The notes under the pieces: generated by a model | What the model was told of the DNA's origin: nothing | What the model saw: the letters and a program-made list of their open reading frames with translations, nothing else | The model's database searches: none | Origin: Archaeoglobaceae archaeon | Lineage (GTDB): Archaea > Halobacteriota > Archaeoglobi > Archaeoglobales > Archaeoglobaceae | Reading direction: 5' to 3' | Length of the DNA: 39,045 nucleotides | NCBI GenBank assembly: GCA_026988525.1 | Contig: JALSLC010000030.1 | Location: 1 to 39,045, forward strand | Position numbers and translations under genes: made by a program | Shown: positions 24,267-31,950 of the stretch, one piece after another | Numbering within the stretch: the stretch's first letter is position 1 | Layout of the letters: each line of letters opens with the position of its first letter

Positions 24267-25562
24267 CTACATTTCTTCTACTTTTTCTAATATTCTTTTA
24301 AGAATTTCTTCATCACTTAGTATTCCTTCTGGTGGATCAACTATTTTTTTCAACCTAAGTGGGATAGAATCCATTCTATAGGCTGATCCTTCTACTTCTA
24401 CGCCTGCTATTGCTGATGGAATAAGAATATTTGCAATTTTTGCTGTTAAACTCATAAAAGGATCAACTACTATTAGGGGTATCTTTTTTATATATTCAAC
24501 TGTAGTTTTTGGAAAGTGAGCTACCGGATCACCTCCAAGTACGAACATAGCATCTGTATCTCTTCTACTTAAAATACTATTGGCATCTGTTTCTCCCGGA
24601 TTGTACCAAGGATACCCTTTAGTAAAATCTACAGCAAATGGAAATCCGGTTTCCCAAGCACAAACTTCATTAAATCCTGTAACATTGTAGTGTCCTCTCA
24701 TAGGTATAATTCCAAACTTTGTAAATTTGTACAGGTCTTTTACCAAGCTTATAGCTTCGCTTATATTCCAGTAATTTCCAATTGAATGTGTTAATCCCAT
24801 ACCAAAAAATATTACTCCAAATTTACAGTTTTTCATCATTTCTGCAAGTTCTTTTAGTTTGTTAATATCTACACCTCCAACACTCTTAACATTGCATTCA
24901 CCAGTATTTATTATCGTTCTCAAAGCATTTAGAACTTCGTAATCTTTTCCGGGCTTTACTTGTATAAAAATATCTGCAAGTTTTGAGCTCTCAGTTGGTC
25001 TAACATCAACAACAACAACTTTTCTTCCAATTCTGCTTTTGGAAAATCTACCACTTGGAAAAACGGAGTATCTTGACATGTGTCTTGGGTGAGCATGCAT
25101 TGGATTGCAACCCCAGAATATAATTAAATCAGCTCTATTTTTTACCTCACCCAATGTAAAACTTGGTACACCAACTTCATGAACAGCTAATATTGTTGGG
25201 CCATGGCAGACTGAGGATGTACAATCTATAACTCCCCCTACTTTTTCAGCCAATTCTATTGCTACTTCCTGAGTTTCGCAGGTTGTAGAAGAGAAGCCAT
25301 AAAAAAGCGGTTTTTTTGATTTTACAAGTATTTTTGCACATTCTTCTATAGCTTTTTCAAGTGAAGTTTCCTTCCCATAAACTTTTGGTGTAAGGACTCT
25401 ACCGTGATTTCTTGCGAGAATTTTTGAGGTACCGAGAATACATGCATTTTCAACTTTAATTTCTTTTTCGTCAGTTTCTACTATTAAATCATCGCATAAT
25501 GCTCCGCAAAAAGGACATACGTAGTTATACACAATTTTAATTTTTTTTTGTTTTGCAATCAT
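24267..25562 (-). CDS. fwdB: Formylmethanofuran dehydrogenase subunit B
   Basis: This is the Mo/W-pterin catalytic subunit that reduces CO2 (via formate) for transfer to methanofuran, or runs in reverse during C1 oxidation. At 431 residues it has the N-terminal [4Fe-4S] site (C16, C19, C23, C41 in CPFCGALC and NACILG) and the metal-ligand cysteine C119 in SSVCHGPT, encoded by cysteine rather than selenocysteine. Pterin-binding segments such as FWGCNPMHAHPRH and VLGGDPVAHFP are intact. No fwdA, C, D or F genes are adjacent, so this is either a separated subunit or a paralogue. It follows the CdhB-ferredoxin fusion by 35 bases. Confidence 0.93.
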   Translation of the reverse strand: MIAKQKKIKIVYNYVCPFCGALCDDLIVETDEKEIKVENACILGTSKILARNHGRVLTPKVYGKETSLEKAIEECAKILVKSKKPLFYGFSSTTCETQEVAIELAEKVGGVIDCTSSVCHGPTILAVHEVGVPSFTLGEVKNRADLIIFWGCNPMHAHPRHMSRYSVFPSGRFSKSRIGRKVVVVDVRPTESSKLADIFIQVKPGKDYEVLNALRTIINTGECNVKSVGGVDINKLKELAEMMKNCKFGVIFFGMGLTHSIGNYWNISEAISLVKDLYKFTKFGIIPMRGHYNVTGFNEVCAWETGFPFAVDFTKGYPWYNPGETDANSILSRRDTDAMFVLGGDPVAHFPKTTVEYIKKIPLIVVDPFMSLTAKIANILIPSAIAGVEVEGSAYRMDSIPLRLKKIVDPPEGILSDEEILKRILEKVEEM

Positions 25563-25597
25563 ATCGAGATTTATCAGTATTTATGGTGATAAAAATT

Positions 25598-26311
25598 TTA
25601 CTGTTTTAAAGTTATGTAAACGTTCTCCAAAAGTTCTCCAAGCATTAATTTATGTAAAAGTTCTCCTTTCTCAAATATTATAGCATTTCTACTGCAAAAT
25701 TCTGCACAAAGACCACATCCTATGCACAAACATGGTTTTATGTATATCTTACCTCTAACTACGTTTATTGCCAAACCCTTAGACATTGTTTTGCAGACTG
25801 TTACACAATCCCCACATCCAGAGCATAAGCTATCTTCTATCGCCATTGCCATTGCTGAAAAGCTATAGTCTGCATTTGGTTGATAGTATTCATCTAAACT
25901 TAGTGTTTTTATATTTGAAAAATGCCTCAAAGATGATAGAACTCTGGAAAGGTAGTACGGTTGTATCCCAAGAAAAACTATTAAATCAAACTTTCTAAGT
26001 TTACGCCACTCTCCGTCTTCTATGAACTGGATTATGTGATGTAGTGTGTAACTTTTTGTTACGGGTTTTACACCCCTCTCTAATAATGGTTTGGATGAAG
26101 CTCCGGTAGCTATAACAGGCATAATATTGCTCAGTTCTACCGCAAAATCAACGAGGTACTTCTTTTCAAGTAGTAACCCACCTGTAACAAGAACAGCTCT
26201 TGATGACATTATTATTTTAGCTGCCTCAGAAGGGGTAACACAAACAGCCCTATCACATTGTAGTTCTGATTGTTTATAGCTACGAGGAATATATACCCAG
26301 CGTCTCACCAA
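25598..26311 (-). CDS. CdhB-like (ACDS epsilon) domain fused to a 2[4Fe-4S] ferredoxin
   Basis: Residues 1-150 match the epsilon subunit (CdhB) of the acetyl-CoA decarbonylase/synthase complex: IMSSRAVLVTGG, MPVIATGASSKPLLERG, KFDLIVFLGIQPYYLSRVLSSLRHFSN and DEYYQPNADYSF. Residues 160-210 add two [4Fe-4S] sites, CSGCGDCVTVC and CIGCGLCAEFC. Free CdhB has no ferredoxin part. The fusion could pass electrons from a CO- or C1-oxidising partner; the adjacent fwdB is a natural candidate partner. No cdhA/C/D/E is in the window. The domain call is strong; the function is inference. Confidence 0.83.
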   Translation of the reverse strand: MVRRWVYIPRSYKQSELQCDRAVCVTPSEAAKIIMSSRAVLVTGGLLLEKKYLVDFAVELSNIMPVIATGASSKPLLERGVKPVTKSYTLHHIIQFIEDGEWRKLRKFDLIVFLGIQPYYLSRVLSSLRHFSNIKTLSLDEYYQPNADYSFSAMAMAIEDSLCSGCGDCVTVCKTMSKGLAINVVRGKIYIKPCLCIGCGLCAEFCSRNAIIFEKGELLHKLMLGELLENVYITLKQ

Positions 26312-26346: not shown

Positions 26347-27009
26347 TCACAAAAACTTAGAAGCAAATGTTTCAGTTTTACTATTGCATATTTCATTATA
26401 TTTGCAATTTTTACATTTATTTGATTTTTCTTTTTCTGGTAAGAAATTGTTTTTCAATTTTCTAACTCTATCTATTGCTTTTAAGACAACTCTTTTATCT
26501 TTAATTCTAACTCTGTAATCCTTCAAAATTCCCGAACGACAATAGTATATATATCCTTTATCAATTTTTAGCATTATACAAAAAGCAGATAATTTAATTC
26601 TATCTTTGTACCATATTTCGTTATCTGGGGCTTTAAATCCCAATATTAATGGTAATTTTTCATTAAATGATTCAACAACCTCATCTAATACGCCTATAAG
26701 TTTTAATTTATCACTTCTTACTTCTACCTCTGTTTCTATGCTTTTTAAATTGTTTAGTTCACTTGAGAATTTAAAATTCTTTATTGCTTTTTTAAATAAA
26801 TCTAAGTTTTCTTTACCATATATTGCAAGAAATCTACTTTCTGCTTTAGATTTCCAATCTTCTCCGTAGTTTCTCCAACTGAAGTATATTTCTTTCATAG
26901 CTTGAAATTCAGAAACTTGAGATTCAAGGGGAAAGTGTAAGTTGAAGTAACAGTACCTCTGACAAAAGAGTAAAGATGCTATATCGCTAACTCTGACAAA
27001 CTCATTCAT
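26347..27009 (-). CDS. Cas4/RecB-like protein lacking catalytic residues
   Basis: The 220-residue protein has the Cas4 layout: one cysteine near the N-terminus (C16 or C20 in FCQRYC), a nuclease-like core, and a C-terminal cysteine trio [10 protein letters not shown] (C199, C202, C208) that would complete a [4Fe-4S] cluster. The core keeps GVLD (D109), but the following (D/E)xK is GFK (G124, K126) and the usual Q of the QxxxY-type motif is K139. Nuclease activity is therefore doubtful. It is coupled to UPF0212 and herA, with no CRISPR or cas genes in the window. A structural or DNA-binding partner of HerA is one possibility. Confidence 0.75.
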
Positions 27010-27362
27010 TCCTTTAGCTCCTCTATTTCTAAAACTTCGAGAGGTACTTTTCTCAATCTTCTACCTATTTCATACTTTGCTATCCTAGCAGCATGTTCTT
27101 TACTTTCTGCATTAAATACTTTCATTTCAAAAGTCAATCCAACAAGAGCTAAACCAGCAACCATAAATGCACTTTTGAGGGCCTCTCCACACTTGGGGCA
27201 TTCCACATATCCTACATCTATTTCTACAAAGTCTAAGTCAGGATTTAATCTTTTACCAGCCTCAGCAACTGCTATATTCATAGCGTCTTCAACACTCTTC
27301 GCATTTCTGACTATCCAAGCTCCTTGTAGAACAACGATATAATCCAATTTACTCACCTCCAA
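27006..27362 (-). CDS. UPF0212 (DUF555) family protein
   Basis: This 118-residue archaeal protein has [40 protein letters not shown], a single CPKCG pair, and [21 protein letters not shown], which together identify the UPF0212/DUF555 family. The function is unknown; the cysteine pair suggests a metal. It sits six bases after herA and overlaps the Cas4-like gene by four (ATGA). Confidence 0.9.
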
Positions 27363-27368
27363 AATAGT

Positions 27369-29012
27369 CTAAAAACCAAACAACTTCCTGAGAATACTTT
27401 TATCTTTTTTCTCATCTTTATTGGCTTCTTCAACTTCTTCAAACTCCGTTTTTATGTCCTTGGTTCTTAATTCAGCTTTTGTTTTTAAATCTTTTCCTTC
27501 TTTTGATTCGTTTTTCGAACTTTTTGACTTGTTAAAGATTTTAATTTTCTCCTTCTTTTTACTTTCAACAACATTTACTGCTGTTCCACCATGTTTACTC
27601 TTTCTAACTCTTATCTCTACTATTATTGGTTTCTCTAATTCTGGGCTTACGACCATTGCAGTTCCCGGAGGTAATCTTCTGATCTCATCGACCATTTCGG
27701 AAGTTAGACCTTCAACACCCTTCTTTATTGCATTTATATCGTTTGGATTTGTAACTCTCAGTATTATTTGTGTGTTGCACTGGCTTATTACATTTTTATC
27801 AACTCTTGCAGGTCTTTGGCTTATAACCATTAGCCCAAGACCAAATTTTCTACCTTCGCTTGCAATAGTTCTTAGTATCTGAGTAGAAACTGTTTTTCCA
27901 AATCCTCTTTCTGGAATAAAGTTATGAGCTTCTTCTATAACTATCATTCCAGCTGGTATTTCGTTTAATTTTCTTAATTCAAATAATTCACTACATATTC
28001 TTGAAACGATTAAATCCTGATGTTCTGGAGGTACACCTCTCATATCCAGTATGGTAACTTTTCCTTTTTGAAGTAAGAGTTGTATGGGTGTTGGATTTTC
28101 ATCAAATAATCCCGCTTCAGTTATTTTTTCTAAACTCCCAAGAACAGTCCATTTTGAATTATGCTTTATTTTTTCAACTTCATTTATTACATCTTCTACA
28201 GTATAACTCCCACTTTTTTTTAAATTTTTTACAGCTTGATAAACAAGAGCTTGTGAAGAATTGCCAGTTATTCCCGCTAATTCTATTAATTCCTCTGCAG
28301 ATAGATTTCTACCATCAAGTTTCAAAACACCATCTGCTACTTCTGCAAATGGCGAATTTGGTGGGACATATACTACAACGTTTTCGTAACCCTTAGGTTT
28401 AATTCCAAAATATTTCATTTTACTTAAATCAAATTCATCATCATTTGGATACTTTAAAGAAGAGTACTCTCCATGCGGGTCTATTATAAATAGGGGTACT
28501 TCTCTTTCTATTAATTCTTCTACAATAACTCCTGCCGTATAACTTTTACCACTTCCTGTTTTAGCGAGTATGCAGCAATGTTTTTGTACGAGTGAATTTA
28601 TATTTATTTTGACTTTTATGTTTGTATCTTGTAAGTATCCAAGGTATGCTCCATCTCTCTTTAATCCAAGCACATCTATTATTAGTTCTTCTTCTGCTTT
28701 GAATACACTTTCTCCCGGAACAAACGGTGTTTTTGGAACTCTGAGCATACCCTCTTCATCTCTTCTACCAACGACTATTGCCTTAGCTATGTACAGCTCT
28801 TTTTCTACATCCCTTCCCTCAAGAACATCTAAACTTTTTAAATCAGCTGTAGCTTTTACTTCTACTACTTGGGCTATGACCCATCCTTCTACATCGTTCC
28901 ACACTTTTACGTAGTCTGTCCTTCTTACTTCTCTTGGATCAAATACAACAAAGTTGAATTCAGTTGAAGTAGCTTCCCCATAAATTCTGCCCACTGCACC
29001 TTTTGTTCTCAT
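27369..29012 (-). CDS. herA: HerA-family hexameric DNA translocase
   Basis: The 547-residue protein opens with a HAS-barrel (residues 1-90, AVGRIYGEATSTEFNFVV), followed by the FtsK/HerA ATPase core with Walker A AKTGSGKS (150-157), FIIDPHGEYSSL, Walker B MIVIEEAHNFIPE, and SQRPARVDKNVISQCNTQIILR. The last 80 residues are a lysine/glutamate-rich, probably disordered tail. HerA normally works with nuclease NurA and Mre11-Rad50 in end resection. None of these is adjacent; instead UPF0212 and the Cas4-like protein follow. A non-canonical HerA paralogue is possible. Confidence 0.88.
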   Translation of the reverse strand: MRTKGAVGRIYGEATSTEFNFVVFDPREVRRTDYVKVWNDVEGWVIAQVVEVKATADLKSLDVLEGRDVEKELYIAKAIVVGRRDEEGMLRVPKTPFVPGESVFKAEEELIIDVLGLKRDGAYLGYLQDTNIKVKININSLVQKHCCILAKTGSGKSYTAGVIVEELIEREVPLFIIDPHGEYSSLKYPNDDEFDLSKMKYFGIKPKGYENVVVYVPPNSPFAEVADGVLKLDGRNLSAEELIELAGITGNSSQALVYQAVKNLKKSGSYTVEDVINEVEKIKHNSKWTVLGSLEKITEAGLFDENPTPIQLLLQKGKVTILDMRGVPPEHQDLIVSRICSELFELRKLNEIPAGMIVIEEAHNFIPERGFGKTVSTQILRTIASEGRKFGLGLMVISQRPARVDKNVISQCNTQIILRVTNPNDINAIKKGVEGLTSEMVDEIRRLPPGTAMVVSPELEKPIIVEIRVRKSKHGGTAVNVVESKKKEKIKIFNKSKSSKNESKEGKDLKTKAELRTKDIKTEFEEVEEANKDEKKDKSILRKLFGF

Positions 29013-31117: not shown

Positions 31118-31950
31118 TTACTGAGTTTCCACCTCCGCCCCATTAGAAACAAACTTTGTCAACTTAATTTTGTAATAACTTGCCTCTCTTATCAAATCTT
31201 TCCAACTGTTTTCTATTTTTAAATTGATTCCACAAACTTCAGCGAGTGTTTCACCTTTCAAGCTTAAATTAAGAATTTGTAATAAACAAACCAACAATCT
31301 CACCAAATCTTAGCCGTTTTTTCACTTTTCAAACCCCTTAAATGTTTTAACCTATCCTTTAAGTTCCTTTCAACAACATTGTTTGTTTCTCCTGCTTTTA
31401 TTTCAGTTCTTCTCACAAATTTAACTCTATGTTCTTTATACCTACTATAGAAAACTTTTTTGAAACCTTTTTCATAAGCCCGCAAAACATCTACAACGTT
31501 TGATAACTACCTCTATTGTTTTTTCTCCAGATATGTGAATGGCAATTAAAAATTTAGTATTAGCATCAATTATTTCCCAGAACTGTTTGTACTCACCATC
31601 ACATTTTATCATAGTTTCATCAACATGGGATTTTCCACTTAATCTAACTTTGGGATTATCAACAAATTCTTTAACCAACACTTAGAATACTTCGTTACTA
31701 TTTCCAAATTGTTACTTAGCTAATATTAACTCCAAATGTCCTTGCTATTTATCTTTGAACTCTTCTAACTTATAAGCCTTCAAAATACAAATCCAAAGCA
31801 GTAACTATGACTTTATCCTTAATTCTCATTTTAACAAAAGTTCCATTATCAACAAACTTGTGTTTACAATCATTGCACAAGTGGCTTTCCTTTACTTTTT
31901 CCGTATTTGATTACATTTTTTGAGCCAAAGTATTTGCACGTATTAATATA
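31118..31950 (-). pseudogene. IS6-like DDE transposase, multiply frameshifted
   Basis: Read from 31950 downwards on the minus strand, the fragments rebuild one transposase. First comes a zinc-ribbon start (CKYFGSKNVIKYGK), then HLCNDCKHKF and the helix-turn-helix part KMRIKDKVIVTALDLYFEGL. The catalytic part follows, with VDETMIK (31472-31681), WEIIDANTKFLIA and NNVVERNLKDRLKHLRGLK (31300-31485), supplying the three DDE acidic residues. The end is SLKGETLAEVCGINLK (31118-31306). At least four frameshifts or stops separate these pieces, so it is dead. The layout matches IS6-like elements of thermophilic archaea. I could not find convincing terminal inverted repeats. Confidence 0.75.

Follow-up and report, generated by a model that had tools for sequence, protein, structure and literature searches.

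A Cas4-fold protein with iron-sulfur cysteines and without the canonical nuclease residues shares an operon with a second HerA paralogue in some Archaeoglobaceae

A Cas4-like protein that carries an iron-sulfur cysteine set and lacks the residues for canonical nuclease activity was found encoded beside a HerA-type DNA translocase in an archaeal genome of 1.43 Mb. The name Cas4L is our own label for this family, and the window is contig C30 of the genome, 39,045 nucleotides long. Comparison by HerA-A (the HerA paralogue of the window) gave Archaeoglobaceae as the nearest named relatives. The explanation that we favour, with moderate confidence, is that Cas4L is a nuclease-dead, iron-sulfur, Cas4-fold DNA-binding housekeeping protein, which in one family has been recruited to an operon whose translocase is probably membrane-tethered. 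The cutting residues are lost phylum-wide, the iron-sulfur cysteines are kept and the operon is shared with a DNA motor, so that Cas4L probably grips DNA instead of cutting it. No wet-lab data on HerA-A, UPF0212 or Cas4L were found in open-licence papers.

The open reading frame coordinates place three tightly packed genes on the minus strand between positions 26347 and 29012, in the order herA, UPF0212, Cas4-like gene:

27369..29012, minus strand: herA paralogue HerA-A, 547 aa, with a HAS barrel and an FtsK/HerA ATPase domain containing an intact Walker A motif
27006..27362, minus strand: UPF0212 / DUF555, 118 aa, with a ferredoxin-like fold and a CPxC knuckle
26347..27009, minus strand: Cas4-like protein Cas4L, 220 aa, with a Cas4/RecB fold and iron-sulfur cysteines, without a canonical active site

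The spacing between herA and UPF0212 is 6 bp, and the UPF0212 and Cas4L genes overlap by 4 bp (ATGA). An earlier note on this DNA, made from the sequence, had described the three genes as coupled; its coordinates and gene order were right, and Pfam and NCBIfam agreed with its gene names. The UPF0212 protein matched Pfam DUF555 with an E value of 1.3e-49 and was modelled by AF2 with a pLDDT of 86. A search with this model returned no PDB homologues at E<0.001, and the matches to its fold were generic ferredoxin-like ones that pointed to no convincing function. Elsewhere in the window, fwdB (formylmethanofuran dehydrogenase B, 24267-26311) adjoins a gene in which a CO-dehydrogenase epsilon-like protein and a ferredoxin domain are fused, and this pair is kept in genomes G001 and G002, near or downstream of Cas4L. 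Beside glnA, at 31118-31681, there are short minus-strand open reading frames in differing frames that resemble the remnants of a transposase gene.

The assignment of Cas4L to the Cas4 group by sequence profiles was close to the detection limits. The match to Pfam Cas_Cas4 gave a weak signal (E=3e-5), and the score of 64.8 bits against TIGR00372, the cas4 equivalog, fell just below the curated cut-off of 65, with the same profile matching 28/28 of the Cas4L members that were scanned. The alignment-based AF2 model of Cas4L had a pLDDT of 93.8, and Foldseek identified Cas4 (8d3l) as its best PDB match with an E value of 2e-8 and a probability of 1.0. Further Foldseek matches were to Dna2 and 4r5q, both with a probability of 1.0, and to MGME1 and Pcal_0546, and the model with these matches confirmed the Cas4/Dna2 nuclease fold. 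The genes cas1 and cas2 are absent from the neighbourhood of Cas4L in the window; cas1 of this genome is located on contig C36, and the genome encodes a second Cas4-like protein that keeps the D and E-V-K residues.

A set of 71 Cas4L proteins sampled throughout the phylum was examined at the active site, with counts that are not independent as the genomes are related. They were compared with 12 Cas4 controls taken from these or related genomes, consisting of seven CRISPR Cas4 proteins encoded beside cas genes such as cas1/cas2, three solo-Cas4 proteins, of the kind whose genes divergently adjoin Cas4L, and two further Cas4 proteins. The positions concerned are, in the window:

26962..26964, minus strand: C16, first cluster cysteine, invariant in 71/71
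26386..26415, minus strand: C199, C202 and C208, the other cluster cysteines, invariant in 71/71
26683..26685, minus strand: D109, retained RecB-motif Asp, D in 63/71
26638..26646, minus strand: I122-L123-G124, site of the lost E-x-K motif, as aligned jointly with the solo-Cas4 and CRISPR-Cas4 controls
26593..26604, minus strand: D136-R-I-K139, possible reconfigured site on the following helix, D/E at 136 in 67/70 rows

The four iron-sulfur cluster cysteines that the earlier note had recognised as kept are thus present in every homologue. An acid at the ExK position was found in 0/71 Cas4L proteins and in 12/12 controls, which indicates that its loss is not due to chance; almost every Cas4L member has I, V, L or F in this column. 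The controls retain D-(D/E)-x-K in 12/12 cases. The note had placed the residues G124-F-K126 at the catalytic site and concluded that the acid was missing. The missing acid was borne out but the pairing was shifted by two residues, since alignment with solo-Cas4 and CRISPR-Cas4 gave I122, most likely, as the acid column and G124 as the Lys column, with K126 falling at a variable position. The conclusion is unchanged, and whichever way the ExK strand is aligned it has no catalytic acid. Migration of the acid within the strand was considered and rejected, as none of the 71 members has an acid elsewhere in it. The substitution of Lys for the usual Gln was identified correctly as K139, a genuine Cas4 from a sister genome having Q at this position (KMQL). 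Beyond these earlier observations, the motif-I His was found in 0/71 Cas4L proteins, being replaced by Y42 in the window protein, and the RecB-motif Asp was found to be kept as D109. Cas4L proteins of the sampled methanogens often still have the strand Lys, or an Arg in its place; those of Archaeoglobaceae have lost it and carry a Lys or Arg at the Gln position. The alignment shows, at the level of sequence, that Cas4L has lost the canonical PD-(D/E)XK chemistry, namely the His, the Glu/Asp and usually the Lys, and Cas4L is predicted to be inactive as a nuclease. The description of the protein as a cluster-bearing, non-cleaving relative of Cas4 is well supported by sequence, and across the phylum.

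Restriction enzymes of the Cfr10I/NgoMIV type have an ExK acid that migrated, and a comparable rearrangement could allow Cas4L to cut, if the acid and base had moved to the next helix as D136 and K/R139, acting together with D109 and with E40, a helix acid. The acidic residue at 136 is specific to the clade, is positioned at the start of this helix and is missing from the real Cas4 controls; position 139 is mostly K, R or Q and is basic in most rows, and in Archaeoglobi the basic residue appears as the strand Lys is lost. A reconfigured nuclease nevertheless appears fairly unlikely, as D109 is lost in 8/71 proteins, E40 is often replaced by Gln or another residue, several methanogens have Q, H or P at position 139 and the motif-I His is lost in all Cas4L proteins.

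In a maximum-likelihood tree Cas4L formed a single clade, separated from the controls with support of 98/93, and the tree broadly followed taxonomy, showing at the sequence level that inheritance has been mostly vertical. With a threshold of E <= 1e-8, 187/197 genomes of the phylum gave a match to the Cas4L profile, although some of the weakest of these 187 matches, mainly in distant families, may be other Cas4 proteins. The homologue sequences support well a loss of the active site that is phylum-wide and not local. No universal partner gene was identified across approximately 50 Cas4L neighbourhoods, and outside the three-gene arrangement Cas4L is a lone gene whose neighbours vary and in some cases are orc1/cdc6 or pcn. 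In genome G172 it divergently adjoins the PCNA gene (L319:889-2583), with herA-A about 3 kb away. In five Archaeoglobaceae genomes a solo-Cas4 whose H-D-E-K site is intact divergently adjoins Cas4L, forming a predicted pair of active and inactive Cas4-fold proteins:

L040:5435-6001, solo-Cas4 beside Cas4L
L041:6902-7465, solo-Cas4 beside Cas4L
L046:2583-3158, solo-Cas4 beside Cas4L
L306 and L307, also with solo-Cas4 beside Cas4L

The Cas4L gene contains several in-frame stops in two Archaeoglobaceae genomes, at L048 (genome G017) and L064 (genome G019), where it is apparently broken or affected by assembly errors.

The gene order herA-UPF0212-Cas4L was found in the genus of the window, in G010, G021 and L318, and in G017, where, as noted above, in-frame stops interrupt the Cas4L gene. 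As the triad occurs in several genera of Archaeoglobaceae, the order is not unique to the window genome, the point on which the earlier note had proposed a check; it is confined to some genera of this family. The linkage of herA to UPF0212 is wider, with HerA-A adjoining UPF0212 directly or one small gene apart across Archaeoglobi, Methanocellales and Methanosarcinaceae, although not in every genome, UPF0212 being missing for example from the ANME-2 and Methanoperedens loci. The recurring order is dphB, herA, DUF357, UPF0212, pfkB or dph6, where dphB was assigned from its tetrapyrrole-methylase domain and by eye. A link between DUF357 and DUF555 is already known (PMC6393860, PMC9425974). These arrangements show herA-UPF0212 to be part of an older linked unit (dphB-herA-DUF357-UPF0212), whose operon Cas4L joined within Archaeoglobaceae.

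The suggestion in the earlier note that Cas4L is a DNA-end sensor or adaptor for HerA fared less well. In its strongest form Cas4L would bind HerA and replace NurA as the DNA-end module, which is consistent with the tight operon and its 4-bp overlap, with the triad in several genera and with the similar C-terminal tails of HerA-A and many Cas4L proteins described below. Of the genomes containing both genes, only 6/87, together with additional members of their genera, have the triad spacing of about 1-2 kb. Three more, outside Archaeoglobaceae, have the genes within 10 kb, which favours an association; against it, in 78/87 the two genes lie on separate contigs or at a distance above 10 kb. Cas4L also persists in many genomes without HerA-A, and this pattern of presence and absence rules out an obligate dependence. 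A dedicated adaptor is regarded as improbable. Since Cas4L has no constant neighbour and is kept without HerA-A, the link to HerA may be incidental. Another reading is that Cas4L has a housekeeping role unrelated to the operon, such as a replication-linked one, and landed behind UPF0212 by accident. Its neighbours differ from one part of the phylum to another and include Cdc6/Orc1 and PCNA genes, which fits such an accident, but despite other rearrangements the order has been kept in at least three or four Archaeoglobaceae genera, and we regard hitch-hiking as the least probable of these readings. Recruitment of a housekeeping protein within one family remains the preferred explanation.

HerA-A contains the HAS-barrel, DUF87 and HerA_C domains of Pfam, and its Walker A sequence GSGKS is invariant in 24 orthologues; the HAS barrel, the Walker A motif and the conserved ATPase core place it in the FtsK-HerA superfamily. 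Orthologues with roughly 46–86% identity were found in 98/197 genomes. The identity to HerA-B, the NurA-type paralogue, is only about 32–36%, and the score of HerA-A on NF040819, the equivalog for HerA of the HerA-NurA repair system, is 165 bits against a curated cut-off of 970. By sequence, HerA-A is shown to be a second HerA paralogue, distinct from the NurA type. Contig C22 of the window genome carries HerA-B and contig C32 carries NurA, both separate from the window contig, and nurA is not beside HerA-A. It is close to HerA-A in G008, G019 and G011, and in G019 and G008 herA-A directly adjoins mre11-rad50-nurA-(157 aa)-herA-B (L337:7564-16180; L338), placing two HerA paralogues in one repair cluster. 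The position beside mre11-rad50-nurA in these two sister genomes fits a role in repair as well as any role at the membrane.

The C-terminal ends of HerA-A and Cas4L contain the following features:

27372..27401, minus strand: HerA-A tail KSILRKLFGF, amphipathic and resembling the membrane-targeting end of MinD
27402..27581 (approximate), minus strand: HerA-A linker from the ATPase core to the tail, variable, charged and of low complexity
26350..26370, minus strand: Cas4L tail TFASKFL, conserved, of low model confidence and probably flexible

The linker measured in HerA-A orthologues has a length of 18–116 aa with a median of 54. The tail pattern [GS]-h-[LF]-x-K-h-F-G was found in about 90/95 distinct HerA-A proteins, 83 by the strict pattern and 7 by eye, and in 0/20 of the HerA-B proteins examined. 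It is nearly identical to the end of E. coli MinD (KKGFLKRLFGG), and its mean hydrophobic moment is 0.75, compared to 0.44 for shuffled sequences and 0.78 for MinD. The C-terminal end of MinD is an amphipathic membrane-targeting helix, a single copy of which binds weakly and works on dimerisation of MinD (PMC8155659). The HerA-A tail has the sequence of an amphipathic helix of the MinD type, and HerA-A is probably tethered to the membrane.

The last ten residues of Cas4L have a pLDDT of about 61, and many Cas4L proteins have [ST]-[FL]-x-S-[KR]-F-[FL] as their final residues. Cas4L tails outscored other proteins by far on the HerA-A tail profile with p=4e-27, a value that ignores relatedness, and 41% of them lay beyond the 99th percentile given by 433 background ends. 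The likeness is clearest in methanogens and weak in Archaeoglobaceae, including the window protein, where the Cas4L tail has few positive charges. A shared docking site or a shared membrane affinity would explain the likeness. The tail was also considered as a PCNA box, but on our own reading its spacing is h-x-x-x-F-F and not L-x-x-F-F, so that it is not a canonical PIP box. A more ambitious reading, that HerA-A is a membrane-tethered translocase doing the job of FtsK in these archaea while a dead iron-sulfur Cas4 clamps DNA ends or junctions through a related tail, is regarded as doubtful.

In the favoured explanation, a Cas4-fold iron-sulfur ancestor would have lost the canonical PD-(D/E)XK chemistry early and then been retained as a housekeeping DNA-binding protein. 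Its cluster-locked nuclease fold may grip single-strand/double-strand junctions or DNA ends without cutting, positioned by the conserved flexible C-terminal tail. Six weak helices would hold the HerA-A hexamer at the membrane, and Cas4L would, in the genus of the window, be co-produced as a DNA-engaging accessory of this motor.

Cas4 proteins of both CRISPR and solo types (COG1468 / PF01930 / TIGR00372) share with Cas4L the fold, the four cluster cysteines and the RecB-motif Asp, while Cas4L lacks the motif-I His, the ExK acid, usually the Lys, and cas1/cas2 neighbours, and has its own C-terminal tail. Conserved motifs led Hudaiberdiev et al. (2017) to suggest that all Cas4 proteins are active, and the nucleocapsid protein of TTV1 is described as an inactivated Cas4 derivative (both PMC5704561). 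That protein resembles Cas4L as a Cas4-like nuclease whose activity is lost, but it has a role in a viral capsid, whereas Cas4L is cellular, vertically inherited and retains the iron-sulfur cysteines. Cas4L isolates the Fe-S/Cas4 fold as a predicted DNA-binding module. The nuclease-like domain of RecC is also an inactive PD-(D/E)XK fold that lies beside a DNA motor and engages DNA. In contrast to Cas4L it has no iron-sulfur cluster, is fused to a helicase-like protein and belongs to a different operon.

FtsK and CedB/CedD resemble HerA-A as FtsK-HerA ATPases at the membrane, a location that is predicted for HerA-A, but they use transmembrane segments (for CedD, PMC11868833), while HerA-A has only the C-terminal amphipathic tail. 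The likeness to E. coli MinD is confined to the C-terminal GFLKRLFGG on a charged stretch, as MinD is a dimeric Walker ATPase of cell division and HerA-A belongs to a DNA translocase family. The missing archaeal counterpart of FtsK, and HerA as a suggestion for it, were stated previously (PMC2958812), and HerA-A with its MinD-like tail offers a concrete, testable candidate. The HerA of the HerA-NurA complex has the HAS barrel and ATPase core in common with HerA-A, which differs in being usually beside UPF0212 and not NurA, and in having the MinD-like tail in place of one of the RLFWDE type. Most HerA-B proteins of Archaeoglobaceae end in this other conserved tail, (K/R)LFW(D/E), which is RLFWDE-like (L325, L327-L336, L339 and others).
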